The translations under genes and the position numbers were made by a program. 40,052 nucleotides of DNA from a virus: the IMG/VR virus record IMGVR_UViG_3300017637_000005, positions 1-40,052 of that record. One strand, 5' to 3'. Below are positions 9,798 to 18,363 of this stretch, one piece after another; within the stretch, counting starts at the first letter, position 1, and each line of letters begins with the position of its first letter. The notes beneath the pieces are model-generated. The model did not search any database, was not told where the DNA came from, and was given only the letters and a program-made list of their open reading frames with translations.

Positions 9798-9874
9798 GGA
9801 TTGTCTCCGGTTCGATTGAGGGGAGGGGCTGGGGCGCGGGGCGGGGCGCGCTGGCGGGTCGCGCGCGGGGTCAT
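9794..9874 (-). CDS. Possible 26-residue coupling peptide
   Basis: A 26-codon frame is joined by ATGA overlaps to the replication gene upstream and to the zinc-ribbon gene downstream. The peptide is Pro/Arg/Ala-rich. It may be a real microprotein or only a reinitiation bridge between the two larger genes. The next gene has its own ribosome site, so the bridge is not required. Confidence 0.3.
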   Translation of the reverse strand: MTPRATRQRAPPRAPAPPLNRTGDNP

Positions 9875-12531
9875 CGGTCGGCGTCCTTTGCGCCGCCGCC
9901 CTTGCCGAGCTGATGGAAGACCCAGCACCGCACCGACTGTCCGGCTGGGTTGTTCACCGCCTTGCTGGCGGCGATGAACTTGCGGCTCTTGCTGTTGCGG
10001 AGCAGCTTTTTGAGGAGCCCCATGTCGGGCACCGACAGGCCGAAGCTGCGGCAGCGCGATTCAAACTCGACCAGGTTGACCGCGATGATGTTTTCGGCGT
10101 CGCGCGAGTGGTTGAGGGACTTGCCCTCATAGGCGGCGTCGCGCGTCTCGCGATCGAGGAGCCATGTGTAGCGTTCCCAGAATTCGGCGACCTTTTCGTG
10201 ATCGCCGCCGGTCGCTTCCTGCGCGGCCAGCGCCATCGCATCGATGAAGGTCAGGGTGTCATCGATCCATTCGCGGCGACAGTTCGGGAACAGGCGGGGC
10301 AGGGTTTCGATCGCCGCCGCCAGCTGGGCATGGTTCTTGATGATGCGGTCGTTGTGCAGACCGACGGCGCGGCGGGGCAGATCGCGGTCGTGATGGGCCG
10401 AGCGGTCGAAATAGAGCTCGAGCCATTTCGCTTCGCTGCGCACGACATGCACGATGGTCGCGGACGCCGTGTCGGCGGGCCATTGCTCAAGCCGCCGGGC
10501 CGCTTCCTTGGTCGCCGGGGTGCGGCCATCCTTGTCGATGCGCAGCGTGATCAGGCGTTCAAGCACCGCCGGGATCGCGTCGATCGGGTCGTTCTGGACG
10601 AGGTAGATAGTGCCGAGAAAGGGCGGCTCGCTGGTCTCGTAGCCGTTCGATTTCTGGCCGGTGCCGCGCGGCGAGCGCCCGTTGAACAGCACGAGCAGGT
10701 CGTTGTAATCATACTGGCGGTAGCCGCCGCGCTTGTCGTCGTCGCGCTTGCCCTCGACCAGGCCGACGGGCAGGTTCGACACCTTGATCAGGCTGCGGGC
10801 GATGAAGGCCGGGGTGGCCTTGTTCGGGTCGAACCCTTCATAGCCGTAGCGACCGAGCAGCTTCCAAAGAAACTCGATGATCGTCGATTTGCCGGATCCC
10901 GGTTCGCCGATGACCTGAAGGAAGCCGAGCGACTTTTCGCGCAGGCGGATTTGCACCGCGAACAGCGACATGATGAAGAAGCCGAGCGCGACCAGGCCGC
11001 GCGGCCCCCATGCCGTCCACACATCGGGCAACCAGCTGAAATCGACCCGATCGGGATCGTAGCTGATGTCGAGCATCCGTTCGGTCGAGCGGGGCTTCAC
11101 CGCCGCCTTGCCGAAATCGAAATAGCTTTCGCGGTTGATTCCGATCACGCGGCCTTCGCGCACCGCGATATCGCCGAGCATCCATGCCCGGTGCGGGTGC
11201 GAATAGCCGGTGAAGTAGATGGGTTCGACCACCTTGAGCTGGCGCGTCTGGTTGCGCATCAGGCGGTCGAGCTGTTCGCCCGTCCCGGCCCACATGCCCG
11301 CGAACGCCATCAGCCGCTTCTTGAACTCCCCGCTGTTCGCGCAGGCAGCCGCCGAAAAGCGCGCCTTGACCGTCGGCTGGCCGAACGGGAAATCGATCTG
11401 AAGGAAGTAATTGGTTTCGTCGGAGATTTCGTCGCGCTCGCGGTAGAGCAAGCGGAAGGCGCAATTGGCGATCTCATCGACTTCGATCGTGCGGTTCTTG
11501 TCCTCATCATATTTGATCCGCGCCCACCACAGGCGGTTGCCGTGGCGGAAGTCGAAGGATGAGATGGGCAGGCGATCGGCGATCAGCTTCGCCTTTTCGC
11601 GCGGCGTCTTCGCGATCGTGACCGCGCCGTTCCACAGATATTGTTCGAAGCTTTCGTCGGAGAGCGGGGCCTTGGCCGGGTCGCCCTTCCACGCCTTGTG
11701 CCGCAGCCAGAGGTCGTTCCAGTCGAGCTTGTCGCCCTCGCCATCGGGGCGGACCTGCATCGCGGTCGCTTCCCACCCCTGCTCGATCGCCTTGTCGACG
11801 AACTTACGGGTCCATTCGGTGCCGGCGCGGCCCACGTCGAAGGCGAAGACGAGGCGGGGGCGGGTGACTTTCTTGATCCGCTCGAGCTCGGCGCGGAGCG
11901 CGGAGAGGAAGTGTTCGGGCCAGACGTTGACCGACATTGCCGACACGGCGAGCTTGCCCGCCATGGTCAGGGCCGTGGCGTCGAAGATGCCCTCTGCGAT
12001 CAGGATATCGTCGGCCTGGGCGAGCATTTCCAGCGTGGTGCTGGGCGGCATCCACACATGGCCCTTCCAGCTTCCGCCCCACGCGAAATGCGCCTTTTTC
12101 TCAAAGCGTCCGACGCGATCGATCAGGCGTTCCCACCAGGTGTCGCCGACGCGGAAGCGCACCGTGGCGCTGGTCGCGCCGGTCTTTTGGCAGCGGAACA
12201 GCTCCTGAGTGTAGGTGCCCGCGAGCAGCTTCAGATCGAGGCCGCGTTCGAATTCGAGATAGGCGTCGGCGGTGGCGTTGGGCCGTTCCTCGCTGACCTT
12301 GAACCGCTTCGACCAGTCTTCGAACAGATCGGGGAGGATGTTGCGGACGCTGTCTTCCCAGCCGCAGTTTTCCTGTCGGCTGCACCGCACGATCTTGGGG
12401 TCTTCGGCGGCGCAAAACGCCTCCCACTTGCCGCACGCGGGGCATTGCCCTTCCTGCAACCAGCTGCCCCGGTCCTTCTTAAACCGGAACTGGGCTTTGA
12501 GCCCTTTCAGGATGTCGTCGGCGAAACTCAC
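9871..12531 (-). CDS. Phage replication protein with zinc finger, Toprim and P-loop ATPase (primase-helicase-like)
   Basis: The 886-residue protein combines a zinc-binding N terminus (Cys30, Cys33, Cys50, Cys56), a Toprim-like domain with the catalytic-type glutamate in ILIAEGIFDA (Glu180) and the FAFDVGRAG strand near 229-237, and a C-terminal ATPase with Walker A GEPGSGKST (542-550). This is the layout of a primase joined to a helicase-like motor, so it should prime and unwind DNA at the phage origin. It replaces the rolling-circle protein A of P2, which implies a different replication mode. The start is GTG at 12531, with GGAG about 10 bases upstream. It is the first large gene of the leftward early operon. 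Confidence 0.82.
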   Translation of the reverse strand: MSFADDILKGLKAQFRFKKDRGSWLQEGQCPACGKWEAFCAAEDPKIVRCSRQENCGWEDSVRNILPDLFEDWSKRFKVSEERPNATADAYLEFERGLDLKLLAGTYTQELFRCQKTGATSATVRFRVGDTWWERLIDRVGRFEKKAHFAWGGSWKGHVWMPPSTTLEMLAQADDILIAEGIFDATALTMAGKLAVSAMSVNVWPEHFLSALRAELERIKKVTRPRLVFAFDVGRAGTEWTRKFVDKAIEQGWEATAMQVRPDGEGDKLDWNDLWLRHKAWKGDPAKAPLSDESFEQYLWNGAVTIAKTPREKAKLIADRLPISSFDFRHGNRLWWARIKYDEDKNRTIEVDEIANCAFRLLYRERDEISDETNYFLQIDFPFGQPTVKARFSAAACANSGEFKKRLMAFAGMWAGTGEQLDRLMRNQTRQLKVVEPIYFTGYSHPHRAWMLGDIAVREGRVIGINRESYFDFGKAAVKPRSTERMLDISYDPDRVDFSWLPDVWTAWGPRGLVALGFFIMSLFAVQIRLREKSLGFLQVIGEPGSGKSTIIEFLWKLLGRYGYEGFDPNKATPAFIARSLIKVSNLPVGLVEGKRDDDKRGGYRQYDYNDLLVLFNGRSPRGTGQKSNGYETSEPPFLGTIYLVQNDPIDAIPAVLERLITLRIDKDGRTPATKEAARRLEQWPADTASATIVHVVRSEAKWLELYFDRSAHHDRDLPRRAVGLHNDRIIKNHAQLAAAIETLPRLFPNCRREWIDDTLTFIDAMALAAQEATGGDHEKVAEFWERYTWLLDRETRDAAYEGKSLNHSRDAENIIAVNLVEFESRCRSFGLSVPDMGLLKKLLRNSKSRKFIAASKAVNNPAGQSVRCWVFHQLGKGGGAKDADR

Positions 12532-15022: not shown

Positions 15023-15059
15023 GCGCCTAGCGTTGGCCGCTCGGCGGCGCGCTAGGCGC
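15023..15059. terminator. Bidirectional hairpin between convergent genes
   Basis: GCGCCTAGCG (15023-15032) pairs with CGCTAGGCGC (15050-15059) around a 17-base GC-rich loop. It lies between the convergent lipoprotein and antirepressor genes and overlaps the antirepressor stop. A short T run follows on the + strand. This fits a shared terminator. Confidence 0.6.
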
Positions 15060-15876
15060 TTTCCAGTTCGGGCAACTTCGACCGGTCGAAAATCCAACAA
15101 CGCCGAATCCGGGTGTCGCGGCCATTGACCGCCGCAGCCTCAACAAATGCGGGGTGCTGGCGCAGCGCGCGGCGTAGCGGTGTGCCGCGTGGTGCGTCGA
15201 TCGCCGCCGCCGCGAAGAGCCTCTCGATCTGGGGGAGCGATATCGCCAGCAAATCGGTGCGGCGGTGGTAGTCAAACTCAACCCCGCTTCGTTTCAGGTC
15301 GATCAGCCCGGCAAAGAACCCGTCGGCGATTTCCAGATCGTCGGGCGCGGGCTGGCCGAAAGCCTCGATCCGGGGGAGGGGCAGGTTCATCCGATCGCAC
15401 ATCTGGCCGAGCAGTGTGTGGAGCATCGCCTTAATTTCGGGATGCCATTCGTGCTTTAGCCGGTCGGTCAGTTTGAGCAGTTCGGTTGTCGCGCCGGACG
15501 CAAGCGCAGCCGGTGTGCCCCGCCGCCCGCCAAAGAAATGCACGAAGAGCGCATGGAAGGCCTCTTCCTGAAAGAGCGTCACCCGTTCGCGGACGATGGG
15601 GTCCTTGATGCGTTCAGATTGTATCGTCGTGAGGAACCCCGGAAGCATTTCGAGGCTCAAAGCGACCGTTTCCTGCATGCCACCCTGTGAAGGTATACGT
15701 GTTACACGTATACCTTTGGACAGCACCGGGTGCCGCTTAATCCGCTCCAGTTGTGGGTGCCACGCAAGCCCCAGCTGATCGACCAGAGCTTTGAGGGGCA
15801 CTTCTACCTCGTCCCCCTGATGCGCGGTGAGAATCTGATATTGGTGGAAAGGGACGATCTGAAACATCTTCGTCAT
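15052..15876 (-). CDS. ant: P22-type phage antirepressor
   Basis: The 274-residue protein opens with a P22_AR_N-like domain: an N-terminal strand, then LKALVDQLGLAWHPQLERIK, RHPVLS and VALSLEMLPGFLTTIQ. This is the pattern of antirepressor N-terminal domains that bind and inactivate CI-type repressors. The middle is helical and a conserved C-terminal block ends in CWIFDRSKLPELES. Residues 54-62 (KGIRVTRIP) are encoded by a perfect 27-bp palindrome that recurs in a downstream array. In relatives I know this position is a variable hairpin of about the same length, so the palindrome seems to be part of the gene, not an added insert. The gene is coupled to the S24-like gene by ATGA. Confidence 0.82.
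   Translation of the reverse strand: MTKMFQIVPFHQYQILTAHQGDEVEVPLKALVDQLGLAWHPQLERIKRHPVLSKGIRVTRIPSQGGMQETVALSLEMLPGFLTTIQSERIKDPIVRERVTLFQEEAFHALFVHFFGGRRGTPAALASGATTELLKLTDRLKHEWHPEIKAMLHTLLGQMCDRMNLPLPRIEAFGQPAPDDLEIADGFFAGLIDLKRSGVEFDYHRRTDLLAISLPQIERLFAAAAIDAPRGTPLRRALRQHPAFVEAAAVNGRDTRIRRCWIFDRSKLPELESA
15690..15716. repeat. Palindrome E0 inside the antirepressor gene
   Basis: The arms AAGGTATACGTGT and ACACGTATACCTT flank a single T at 15703, so the 27 bases form a perfect odd palindrome. Read on either strand in the gene's codon phase, it gives the same core GIRVTRIP. It differs from array element E2 at one position of the 27. Confidence 0.95.
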
Positions 15877-16361
15877 GGGCGAAGCTCCGATTCGGGCTGC
15901 CCGATGCGTAGCATCGGGCGGAAGTCCATTTCGAGGATGCCGATCACCTTGCCGATGATCTTTTGCCGCAGATGCGATTCGGGCGGGGCGTCGGCGGCGT
16001 AGGGGCCATCGGGCAGCGCGTGAGCCCGGCCCTGTTCCAACCACGCGCAGGTTTCATCGGCGCTGCGCGGGCGGTTGTGGCTCCACACATACCAGTTCGA
16101 CCGGCCCCGGTTCTCGCGAAGCACCGGTTCGATCACTTCCTGACGACCGCCGAACCATTGGATCAGAAACAATTCACCTTCAGCCGGTTCGCGGTCGCGC
16201 ACGTCGATGACCAGACATTCGCCCCGGTGCATCAACGGTTCGCAGGAATCGTCGGACAGTTCGAAGGGCAGGCACCCATCGGGAAGCTGACGATAGATGA
16301 TGTAGGGCCGCAGCCCTTCTTGCATGGGCGCAGGCGTGGGCAGTAGGAAGTATGCAGCCAT
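15873..16361 (-). CDS. S24/LexA-like protein without HTH domain
   Basis: The 162-residue protein has an S24-like fold pattern: SDDSCEPLMHRGECLVIDV (about 36-54) matches the nucleophile loop with Ser39, followed by EGELFLIQWFGG. Where S24 peptidases carry the general-base lysine, I see Arg73 (GGRQEVI), so the enzyme may be inactive. There is no N-terminal DNA-binding domain. A C-terminal segment contains KIIGKVIGILEMDF. It is the first gene of a two-gene operon with the antirepressor and is divergent from the Arc-like gene. It could act as a regulatory partner, perhaps as a decoy for dimerisation of the S24 repressor; that is inference. Confidence 0.7.
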   Translation of the reverse strand: MAAYFLLPTPAPMQEGLRPYIIYRQLPDGCLPFELSDDSCEPLMHRGECLVIDVRDREPAEGELFLIQWFGGRQEVIEPVLRENRGRSNWYVWSHNRPRSADETCAWLEQGRAHALPDGPYAADAPPESHLRQKIIGKVIGILEMDFRPMLRIGQPESELRP

Positions 16362-16428: not shown

Positions 16429-16476
16429 TGTAGCTACGGTAGCTATTGACGAACTGTCAAGAGTGTAGCTACAGAT
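16429..16476. promoter_or_regulatory. Divergent promoters with TAGCTA operators
   Basis: The palindrome TTGAC-N5-GTCAA (16446-16460) supplies a -35 box to each direction. TAGCTA occurs at 16431-16436, 16440-16445 and 16466-16471; the outer two are extended to TGTAGCTAC. The leftward -10 fits TAGCTA at 16431-16436 (18-bp spacer) and the rightward -10 fits TACAGA near 16470. Half-site spacing of 9 bp suits ribbon-helix-helix repressors, so autoregulation by the Arc-like protein and control of the antirepressor are likely. Confidence 0.7.
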
Positions 16477-16481
16477 TTTTC

Positions 16482-16643
16482 ATGGCCGAGAAATCAAACC
16501 ACACATTTCAGATGCGGGTCCACACGTCATGGCTCGCCATGATTGATGAATGGCGCCGCAAGCAACCCGACCTTCCGACACGCGCAGAGGCGATCCGCCG
16601 CCTTGTCGATAAAGGTATCAGCGCCGACGCCGAAAGCGCCTGA
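16482..16643 (+). CDS. Arc/Mnt-like ribbon-helix-helix protein
   Basis: The 53-residue protein matches the ribbon-helix-helix layout: strand NHTFQMRVHTS, helix A WLAMIDEWRRKQ, turn, and helix B RAEAIRRLVDKGI. Such proteins dimerise through the strand, which enters the DNA major groove. It is divergent from the S24-like/antirepressor operon, as Arc and Mnt are linked to ant in phage P22. The ATG at 16482 has no Shine-Dalgarno and lies about 7 bases after the proposed -10, so the transcript is probably leaderless. Its likely operator is the set of TAGCTA sites just upstream. Confidence 0.82.
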   Translation: MAEKSNHTFQMRVHTSWLAMIDEWRRKQPDLPTRAEAIRRLVDKGISADAESA

Positions 16644-16649
16644 CCTTCA

Positions 16650-16994
16650 ATGTCGCTGACCTTCCTGTGCCTCGCCGCTGTCGCGGTCGATGGCGACACG
16701 CTGCGGTGTCAGGGCATCGGGCGGGTCCGCATTGCGCGGATCGATTCTCCCGAGCTGCACCGCTGTCCCCCACGCCGGCGCTGTGCGCCGGGTGACCCGC
16801 GCGCGGCGCACGACAATCTGACCCAGCTGATCGCGGGGAAGACCGTGCGGTGTCGGGAGGTCGATGCCAATCCGATGCGGCGGGGGTATCAGGCGCGGGA
16901 TCGCTATGGCCGTCCCGTCGCGGAATGCGAGGCGGGTGGGCGCGATCTGGGCAAAGCGCAGCTGCGCGGCGGGTTCGCGATCCGATGGCCGTAG
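16650..16994 (+). CDS. Small SNase-like (thermonuclease family) protein
   Basis: The 114-residue protein has the nuclease motifs DGDTL (14-18, calcium site), VRIARIDSPE (Arg27 and Glu35, matching Arg35 and Glu43 of staphylococcal nuclease) and DRYGR (Arg88, matching Arg87). The catalytic set is therefore complete. Compared with secreted members, it has no clear signal peptide and a short C terminus, so it may act inside the cell. It begins 6 bp after the Arc-like gene and shares its transcript. No ribosome site is obvious. Next comes the palindrome array, so the array probably forms the 3' end of this transcript. Confidence 0.78.
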   Translation: MSLTFLCLAAVAVDGDTLRCQGIGRVRIARIDSPELHRCPPRRRCAPGDPRAAHDNLTQLIAGKTVRCREVDANPMRRGYQARDRYGRPVAECEAGGRDLGKAQLRGGFAIRWP

Positions 16995-17005
16995 GGGCCG
17001 GACCA

Positions 17006-17032
17006 AAGGTATAAGTGTAACACTTACACCCT
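17006..17032. repeat. Array element E1
   Basis: The left arm is AAGGTATAAGTGT and the centre A17019. The inner arms GGTATAAGTGT and ACACTTACACC have one mismatch. The minus strand reads QGVSVTLIP in the antirepressor codon phase. A small hairpin CACCC-TGA-GGGTG begins within its right arm. Confidence 0.8.
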
Positions 17033-17046
17033 GAGGGTGAAGGTCG

Positions 17047-17083
17047 CCCCAAAGGTATACGTGTTACACGAATACCTTTGGGG
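17047..17083. repeat. Array element E2, near-copy of the antirepressor palindrome
   Basis: The 18-base arms around T17065 have one mismatch. The core 27 bases differ from E0 at a single position, and flanking CCCCA/TGGGG extends the stem. The minus strand reads KGIRVTRIPL, identical to antirepressor residues 54-62. Confidence 0.9.
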
Positions 17084-17129
17084 CAACGCAAAAGGGGTGG
17101 TGCTTAGCACCACCCCTTTTGCGTTGCCC
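17081..17129. repeat. Array element E3, perfect 49-bp palindrome
   Basis: Twenty-four-base arms, beginning GGGCAACGCAAAAGGGG, flank T17105 with no mismatch. The core reads KGVVLSTTP on both strands in the shared codon phase. The stem is strong enough to act as a factor-independent terminator, but no U run follows. Confidence 0.93.
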
Positions 17130-17158: not shown

Positions 17159-17185
17159 AAGCCGTGGTGAAAATCACCACGGCTT
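17159..17185. repeat. Array element E4
   Basis: The arms AAGCCGTGGTGA and TCACCACGGCTT pair perfectly around AAA (centre 17172). The minus strand reads EAVVIFTTA in the shared phase. Confidence 0.85.
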
Positions 17186-17201: not shown

Positions 17202-17228
17202 GAGGTATTACCCTTAGGGTAACGGCTT
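17202..17228. repeat. Array element E5
   Basis: The core TTACCCT-T-AGGGTAA is centred on 17215. The outer arms pair only partly. The minus strand reads KAVTLRVIP in the shared phase. It is followed by CGAAC, as in E8. Confidence 0.82.
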
Positions 17229-17254: not shown

Positions 17255-17281
17255 AAGCCGTCATCATTTTGATGATGGCTT
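17255..17281. repeat. Array element E6
   Basis: The arms AAGCCGTCATCA and TGATGATGGCTT lie around TTT (centre 17268). The only mismatch would be a G-U pair in RNA. The minus strand reads KAIIKMMTA. Confidence 0.82.
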
Positions 17282-17296
17282 TGGACGGGGAGCGCA

Positions 17297-17323
17297 GAGG
17301 TATTACGCTAAGCGTAACACCTT
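17297..17323. repeat. Array element E7
   Basis: The core TTACGCT-A-AGCGTAA is centred on 17310. Compared with E5, a C-to-G change in one arm is matched by G-to-C in the other. The minus strand reads EGVTLSVIP. Confidence 0.85.
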
Positions 17324-17324
17324 C

Positions 17325-17351
17325 GAGGCATTGCCCTTAGGGCAACACCTT
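17325..17351. repeat. Array element E8
   Basis: The core TTGCCCT-T-AGGGCAA is centred on 17338. Compared with E5, an A-to-G change in one arm is matched by T-to-C in the other. The minus strand reads KGVALRAMP. Confidence 0.85.
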
Positions 17352-17367
17352 TCGAACATCCCGAGGG

Positions 17368-18363
17368 TTAGACGCTTTCGAGCGCGATCCGCTGTTTCAG
17401 GCCGTCGCCGTCGAAGCTGGTTTCAACGCTCTCCACCACCCATTTGAGGGAATCGATGCGGCTGTTCCACCCGAGCAGCGCGACGCGCCCGTTCGGCTGA
17501 AGATCGGGCAGCGCGCGCGCCAGTTCATAGGTGAAGGTGCGTGCGCCGCGCTTCCCCTTTGACACCGCGGCATCCGCCGCCTGCGTCGCTTCCGCCTCAC
17601 TGGCATAGACGCGCTTGAGGCGGCGGCGCTTGTCGCCCCCGCGCTTGACGGTGCGGCGCCGGCCGGTGGCGGCATCGTGATATTGCGCCTCGGCCCCGTC
17701 CTGTTCCTCGCGCTCGGCAAAGGCCGATTCCCATGTCCAGCCATCGACCTTGCGGATCGTGGTGGAGGCGATCGTCGCCCCGCTGGCGGTGGTGGTGCTG
17801 CCCACGGGCATGAAGATCAGGCGGCGATCCTTCCACGTTGAGAGCGCGTCGTAGCGGCTGCCCAAATCCTTGACGAAGGCCATGTCGGATTTGTTGTACT
17901 GCTCGATCACGCTGACCGGCTTGCCCGCCAGATCGGGATGCACCTGGGCAGACAGGCCGTTGCGGGTCGCGATGGTGGTGAGGATTTCGCCGACGGTGGT
18001 GTCACGCCAGCTTTGCGTGCGGCGGCGGCGATAGTCGCCGGTGAAATCGGCAGAGCGGGCGCGGATCGTCACCTTGTCGGGAGGCCCGCCTTCGCGGACC
18101 TCATCGACGCGGAACCGGCCCTTGCTGACCAGGCCCAAGGGGACATCGACACCGGAGACCCAGCCAAGGGCCAGCGCCAGCACTGTGCCCTTGTCCGGGG
18201 CGATCAGCAGGCCGTCGTGATTGTGAAGGGTGACCGACAGTTCATCGGCTTCCTCGCCGCGCTTTTCGGTCAGCGACAGCTCAAGCAAGCGGGGCGAGAA
18301 CCGGTCGGTGAGGTCGGTCCCATCCTCAAGGGTCAGGCGGATTCCGGCGATCGTCGCGACCAT
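17368..18363 (-). CDS. D: P2 gpD-like tail hub / late control protein
   Basis: The 331-residue protein fits P2 gpD in length, in position (last gene of the tail operon) and in layout: an N-terminal barrel (about 1-110, with LTEKRGEEADELSVTLHNHD), a middle domain with YNKSDMAFVKDLGSRYDA, and a C-terminal part ending QRIALES. gpD forms the hub that joins the tail tube to the spike. The start overlaps the U stop. Downstream on this strand lies the palindrome array, so late transcripts should run into it. Confidence 0.85.
   Translation of the reverse strand: MVATIAGIRLTLEDGTDLTDRFSPRLLELSLTEKRGEEADELSVTLHNHDGLLIAPDKGTVLALALGWVSGVDVPLGLVSKGRFRVDEVREGGPPDKVTIRARSADFTGDYRRRRTQSWRDTTVGEILTTIATRNGLSAQVHPDLAGKPVSVIEQYNKSDMAFVKDLGSRYDALSTWKDRRLIFMPVGSTTTASGATIASTTIRKVDGWTWESAFAEREEQDGAEAQYHDAATGRRRTVKRGGDKRRRLKRVYASEAEATQAADAAVSKGKRGARTFTYELARALPDLQPNGRVALLGWNSRIDSLKWVVESVETSFDGDGLKQRIALESV

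Follow-up and report, generated by a model that had tools for sequence, protein, structure and literature searches.

A palindrome within the domain-coding sequence of a prophage antirepressor gene and of other phage regulators as a putative intragenic operator

Results

The antirepressor locus

The window, by which we mean the whole stretch of 40,052 bases analysed here, is an IMG/VR record that we judge to be a P2-like prophage of a sphingomonad, on the basis of its tail genes and of the relatives of its gene D in other genomes (Novosphingobium, Sphingopyxis, Sphingomonas, Sphingobium and Asticcacaulis). The features around its predicted antirepressor gene, ant, are collected in Table 1. The profile score of Ant exceeds the curated cut-off of PF10547, and a 162-aa gene whose end overlaps the start of ant probably belongs to the same operon. 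Between this operon and the divergent gene for a small repressor-like protein lie repeats of TGTAGCTAC that, read from the sequence, are likely to mark where the operon has its operator and promoter. The layout, with a 53-aa gene beside the ant operon, appears Arc/Mnt-like, somewhat as in P22 immI. The C-terminal ~70 aa of Ant (15052-15280, minus strand) resemble the C-terminus of Toprim-type phage primases (tblastn matches in contigs L124 and L136), and the window's own primase (9871-10100, minus strand) ends like Ant, in a small domain common to both.

Table 1. Features of the ant locus and the neighbouring array, in window coordinates
Feature	Position	Strand	Remarks
Predicted antirepressor gene ant, 274 aa	15052..15876	-	ATG at 15876; P22_AR_N at residues 8-117; PF10547 76.5 bits against a cut-off of 30.7; PHROG 524 'anti-repressor Ant'
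Perfect 27-bp palindrome in ant	15690..15716		Codons 54-62 (KGIRVTRIP); palindromic in relatives too
162-aa gene	15873..16361	-	Just upstream of ant, overlaps its start; no Pfam or PHROG match
Repeats between ant operon and small repressor gene	16429..16472		Two copies (16429-16437, 16464-16472) and a partial third; read from sequence
53-aa small repressor-like protein	16482..16643	+	PHROG 4738 'transcriptional repressor', E 8e-4
SNase-like protein	16650..16994	+	PF00565, 21.3 bits, barely above the cut-off of 21
E1	17006..17032		11/13 pairs; 23/27 to ant palindrome
E2	17052..17078		12/13 pairs; 26/27 to ant palindrome; extends to 39-bp palindrome 17046-17084
E3	17092..17118		13/13 pairs; core of perfect 49-bp palindrome 17081-17129
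E4	17159..17185		12/13 pairs
E5	17202..17228		9/13 pairs
E6	17255..17281		11/13 pairs
E7	17297..17323		11/13 pairs
E8	17325..17351		10/13 pairs
Gene D-like tail protein	17368..18363	-	PF05954; borders the array

The palindrome inside ant, AAGGTATACGTGTTACACGTATACCTT, is perfect and of odd length, with 13/13 pairs; given the base composition, we calculate that perfect 13-bp arms would arise by chance in 40 kb with a probability of ~1e-3. In the ant frame its outermost bases are the second of codon 54 and the first of codon 63, and it therefore encodes residues 54-62. An earlier reading of the sequence alone had reported both this palindrome and its single difference from array element E2, and both observations hold, the one differing base lying at 17071. 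When the arms were shuffled, the resulting palindromes matched the window at a mean of 15.9/27, and none of 100 reached 26. Relatives of Ant align through the segment without a gap (SKGIRVTRIPSQGG / SQGILIIRIPTNGG), with the outer residues G..P recurring, which speaks against an inserted repeat and bears out the earlier view that the segment is no plain insertion.

An array of related palindromic elements

The array between the SNase-like gene and gene D consists of eight elements of exactly 27 nt, each with 9-13 of 13 possible pairs, and together with the ant palindrome these fall into three sequence groups: ant, E1 and E2; E3, E4 and E6; and E5, E7 and E8. The differences of E1 from ant and E2 include a paired change of C-G to A-T. 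All eight are open in the ant frame within the element, partly because the T-W-A centre places stops in the other frames. As RNA, the array folds far better than its shuffles (z -12.5), as any set of palindromes would. The 49-bp palindrome around E3 (GGGCAACGCAAAAGGGGTGGTGCT, T and the reverse complement) lies between convergent genes and may be a two-way terminator besides being an array element.

No match to the array-type pattern (one pattern, up to 2 mismatches) was found in 298 sphingomonad genomes, and palindromes of the array or ant kind were likewise missing from the 71 gene-D loci examined in related phages. Searches of the window with Rfam found neither C4 nor sRNA-Xcc1, only a tRNA reaching threshold. 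Matches in viral contigs to AAAGGTRTW-N11-WAYACCTTT proved mostly unrelated, being freshwater phage palindromes with promoter-like flanks or terminator-like hairpins with T runs (for example L012 and L071). Some 40 freshwater phage contigs (L010, L035, L036, L118 and ~36 more) share the palindrome AAAGGTATAGTNNNNNNNACTATACCTTT, which has promoter-like flanks, lies upstream of a DnaJ-like reading frame and is unrelated to that of ant.

A mobile palindromic repeat, similar to the Rickettsia palindromic elements, that was inserted in ant and spread within the prophage would account for orphan copies in intergenic DNA. This explanation is largely refuted, however, by the gap-free alignment, which shows ant unchanged in length relative to its relatives. 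The absence of the one pattern searched from the sphingomonad genomes and palindrome sequences that differ in every family also speak against it.

Copies elsewhere in ant-bearing phages

The form AAGGTRT...AYACCTT (up to 2 mismatches) occurs in 26 of 30 other ant-bearing phage records, mostly once and inside ant, and none of the 30 has an array of it. The sequence-only reading had suggested from the near-copy in the array that array RNA or DNA acts on ant. The segment is indeed related to the array, but the results do not support the near-copy as the point of the palindrome in the gene: palindromes without an array are the rule. No homologue with an array but without the palindrome was seen.

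Where extra dyads are present they sit in ant leaders or in other intergenic DNA of ant phages, including orphan dyads in G793 and G795. Leader dyads occur directly after the sRNA-Xcc1 RNA in several Pasteurellaceae-type prophages, in the viral contig L198 and in a Sphingobium ant (L438), whose dyad AAAGGTATGCGTGTAACACGCATACCTTT resembles E2. In their cores these leader dyads depart from the dyad inside the gene that they precede, and they resemble ant segments of other phages. A leader dyad as a general feature of ant is ruled out, as a leader palindrome score of at least 9 was reached in only 2 of 97 clusters, one of these being of another type. A role of the dyad as operator for a CI-type repressor of the phage is also disfavoured: the loci seldom contain a near-copy at another position (5/66 at p<=0.05), and none was noticed by a repressor gene.

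The sRNA-Xcc1 matches lie directly upstream of ant in the Pasteurellaceae-type prophages (L229:2831-2912, L224:2830-2913, L260:2843-2927 and L221:2853-2937), where this RNA may control ant, and contig L202 has C4 and c4-a1b1 upstream of ant. On a Sphingobium MAG contig (L284, L438, L443), an intact ant with 37% identity to that of the window and a leader palindrome close to E2 lies ~10 kb from a broken ant remnant (L284, 10150-10300) that retains the palindrome.

The same place in other regulators

A search with the Ant protein as single query found no relatives in the viral or genome contigs, so profiles were needed to find homologues. Across ~80 ant homologues, mostly of 25-40% identity, the corresponding 27 nt pair at 7-11 of 12 positions, while the encoded peptides differ (GILIIRIP, GMIVMIIP, GVVMMTTP, GITEIVIP and others). 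The palindrome persists where the protein motif differs (L202, CAACCATCACGATAATCGTGATGGTTG; L301, AACCGTGGTCATAATGACCACGGTT), and the ant gene of phage P22 carries one as well (CAACTATGTCGATATCGACATGGTTG). One viral contig (L198) has three tandem P22_AR_N genes, each with its own in-gene palindrome and one also preceded by a leader palindrome.

Palindromes of other lengths and registers are found in Bro-N genes (L414, CTGACCCGCCAATTCGGCGGGTCAG; L410, CTGCTCCAAGAAATCTTTGGAGCAG), and the phages with such genes include some that infect Anoxybacillus, Staphylococcus and Gordonia. In ORF6N, KilA-N and Rha-type genes (L454, CCAACTTGAAGTCGCAATTTGCGACTTCAAGTTGG; L505, TTTAATTCCATCGAATTCGATGGAATTAAA; L532, GCCCACTCGCGTTTGAAACGCGAGTGGGC) they usually stand immediately in front of the wing turn, which is conserved. 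Over the five families (P22_AR_N, Bro-N, ORF6N, KilA-N and Rha-type), many genes have a palindrome at the same place of the domain, between the recognition-helix region and the wing turn, with other sequences, lengths and codon registers, and the hosts of the phages concerned are Proteobacteria, Firmicutes and Actinobacteria. The expectation that codons 54-62 would be palindromic and variable in relatives therefore holds well beyond the P22_AR_N family. We found no account of in-gene palindromes in these domains in the open-access literature that we searched.

The palindrome is kept at the level of nucleic acid

Palindrome scores were compared with a synonymous null in which each protein was recoded with its own codon usage, as estimated from short genes (Table 2). 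The units are clusters at 80% identity, and deeper phylogenetic dependence remains in these figures. Scores are far above the null in each set for which both values are given, and the rates of significance of single clusters indicate that the palindrome is common, not universal. Other windows of the same genes score 4.25 in P22_AR_N and 4.2 in Bro-N, close to the null, and only 5-8% of other windows of ORF6N, Bro-N and KilA-N loci reach a score of 9.

Table 2. Palindrome scores at the domain site and under the synonymous null
Set	Score	Null	Clusters individually significant
P22_AR_N (57 clusters)	8.5	4.8	63% at p<0.05
Bro-N (41 clusters)	6.9	4.3	54% at p<0.05
ORF6N	11.2	5.9	83% of 12 at p<=0.025
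KilA-N	10.1	6.0	62% of 21 at p<=0.025
Rha	8.7	5.9	44% of 18 at p<=0.025
Bro-N, genome			20% of 20 at p<=0.025
ORF6N, viral	9.5	5.7	69% of 13 at p<=0.025
KilA-N, viral	8.8	5.9	48% of 46 at p<=0.025

In P22_AR_N genes, facing third codon bases are Watson-Crick pairs at 121 of 156 positions, compared with 99.7 +- 3.9 under permutation of third bases inside each amino-acid class. This covariation of synonymous bases across the two arms means that the palindrome is maintained as nucleic acid and not through the protein; dyad symmetry held at this level is what would be looked for in an intragenic operator. Compared with the window, the Sphingobium remnant carries a paired change that is synonymous (ATA...CGT to ATT...CGA), and it retains 12/13 pairs despite its broken reading frame.

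The possibility that the palindrome is a coincidence driven by the protein, in that strand residues such as G-I/V-...-T/I-P have mirror-image codons, has some basis in the P22_AR_N register, where G and P, V and T, and I and I mirror each other; arms swapped between different genes still pair at 6.85/12 positions, against 9.33/12 for a gene's own arms. As a full explanation it is refuted by the synonymous null, by the third-base covariation and by the other registers and unrelated peptides of the other families.

Divergence of the segment relative to the rest of the domain is 0.13-0.15 in pairs that are at most 5% diverged and 1.6-3.0 at 5-40% divergence. Taken with the paired changes, the latter values would be explained by a purely mutational upkeep, in which template switching at the quasi-palindrome copies arm onto arm while the protein segment diversifies and the palindrome is read by no factor. 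We regard this as unlikely: the segment is almost unchanged in the closest pairs, which argues against a fast mutational engine, and since the rest of these loci is not palindromic, a general mutational process fails to explain one fixed place in five families.

The stability of the segment between close relatives argues equally against switching cassettes, and the suggestion made from the sequence alone that the array stores alternative segments, or forms a fast switch, fits poorly. That all eight elements measure 27 nt exactly and are open in the ant frame, and that leader dyads resemble segments of other phages rather than their own, could be seen as pointing to in-frame cassettes for codons 54-62. 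Such a store is nevertheless very improbable, given also that most ant phages lack an array or leader copy, that there is no shared flanking DNA to serve recombination, and that the open frame is partly due to the T-W-A centre.

DNA dyad or RNA hairpin

Over all sets, in which a few genes occur twice, mismatches between the arms comprise 39 A-C and 20 G-T. Among third-base mismatches G-T (16, with 17.6 expected) and A-C (14, with 13.7 expected) occur about as expected, and all other types are depleted (26, with 58.8 expected). A hairpin in the sense mRNA should tolerate G-U better than A-C; the arms have no such preference, so a sense-RNA hairpin is not favoured. The pattern fits a DNA dyad and is compatible with an antisense RNA too, since A-C over G-T on the sense strand corresponds to G-U over A-C in the antisense RNA.

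Control through RNA would involve a hairpin in the ant mRNA or in an antisense RNA, as a nuclease site, a protein site or a means of pairing. In the window, a putative array RNA, the 3' part of the transcript of the small repressor and SNase-like genes, would pair with ant mRNA and silence it. Palindromes yield hairpins in either RNA strand, the array folds well, E2 would pair with the ant segment at 26/27 positions, pairing falls at the central bases as in a loop, and C4 or sRNA-Xcc1 RNAs adjoin ant in other phages. Against this stand the sense strand without a G-U preference and the absence of the array from most palindrome-bearing phages, and we consider RNA control possible but rather improbable.

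The protein domain

A sequence-based search found no solved structure of the domain. An AlphaFold2 model (pLDDT 90) has helices at residues 28-35 and 39-48 and strands at 56-63 and 66-74. The nearest solved structures are those of DNA-binding proteins, namely DdrC (best Z 7.6), Dachshund, Ski, Mbp1 and PCG2-DNA, with Z mostly 4.8-7.6, where values below 8 are no proof of a fold; Foldseek E values were not below 0.15. The domain is tentatively predicted to have a winged-helix-like DNA-binding fold of the KilA-N/Bro-N/APSES type. The sequence-only reading had placed the palindrome at a variable beta hairpin. The segment is indeed a variable part of the domain, in register with relatives, but in the predicted structure the dyad encodes the one strand (56-63) that precedes the wing turn and not a whole hairpin.

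How far the segment has diverged among homologues, once background is allowed for, is best predicted by the first residues of the second helix (AWHPQ; partial r 0.38). Contacts inside the protein, or linkage, may underlie this covariation. A third-position Mantel test was set aside, as linkage confounds it.

Discussion

We have described a perfect palindrome within the antirepressor gene of a prophage, and palindromes at the same place of the domain in other families of phage regulators. The reading that we prefer, with a probability of about 0.4, is that the palindrome is a putative intragenic operator inside the gene's own DNA-binding domain, used for autoregulation; of the roles suggested from the sequence alone, binding sites fit best. 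The palindrome in the coding DNA would act as a double-stranded dyad, a control site within the gene. A dimer would bind it, the likeliest candidate being the winged-helix domain of the regulator itself, and binding would limit expression of the gene by roadblock or autoregulation. In this prophage, E1 and E2 would be additional sites for its Ant, and E3-E8 diverged relatives.

In favour of an operator we count the palindrome scores, the third-base covariation, the varied registers in Bro-N, the Sphingobium remnant, the lack of a G-U preference, the winged-helix-like prediction, the covariation with the second helix and the extra dyads in leaders and intergenic DNA. Against it we count that leader dyads and most array elements do not have the core of the same phage's in-gene dyad, which is odd for sites of one protein, that most phages have no second copy, and that only 20% of the genome Bro-N clusters are significant.

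A site inside the coding sequence of the domain would move with it when phage domains are shuffled, so that site and specificity would stay linked and diversify together. A broader and more doubtful proposal, which we put forward tentatively, is that in KilA-N, Bro-N, ORF6N, P22_AR_N and Rha genes the codons lying between those of the recognition helix and those of the wing contain the very dyad that the encoded domain recognizes, site and specificity travelling and diversifying together under mosaicism. Domains of these families are among the regulators often met in temperate phages, and little is known of how antirepressors are silenced and how their specificity is chosen. A control element within the coding DNA of the domain would, if real, provide a predicted binding site for many genes by sequence alone, make testable DNA-binding pairs out of orphan antirepressors and reveal how the regulators of phages retain their sites as they are shuffled from genome to genome. 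Part of the conservation of protein motifs such as GxxxxxxP in P22_AR_N, SxxGIPxS in KilA-N and LKSQFATSS in ORF6N may be due to the DNA that encodes them.

The proposed site can be set beside several known systems. Rickettsia palindromic elements belong to a single sequence family, whose repeats have been inserted throughout the genome. They too place palindromic DNA in protein-coding genes, whereas the ant palindromes show no insertion (the alignment is gap-free), no common sequence and no genome-wide spread (0/298 sphingomonad genomes). The C4 antisense RNA and sRNA-Xcc1 (RF01695, RF02221) adjoin ant in some relatives, but the window has neither of them, and they are distinct in sequence from the palindromes. 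The ant/immI region of P22, with Arc, Mnt and sar RNA, resembles the window in having a protein of the same family, ant beside a small repressor gene and an in-gene palindrome in ant; its annotated control elements (the Arc and Mnt operators and sar RNA) fall outside the palindrome segment. To our knowledge, the palindrome of P22 ant is not among the described P22 sites, and we know of no P22 counterpart of the array. Lastly, the internal operators of lac and gal are examples of intragenic operators in autoregulated or catabolic genes. They share with the phage genes a dyad in coding sequence, bound there by a regulator and here a putative site. What sets the phage dyad apart is that its place within the gene for the DNA-binding domain itself is fixed, that several families have it and that its sequence changes.
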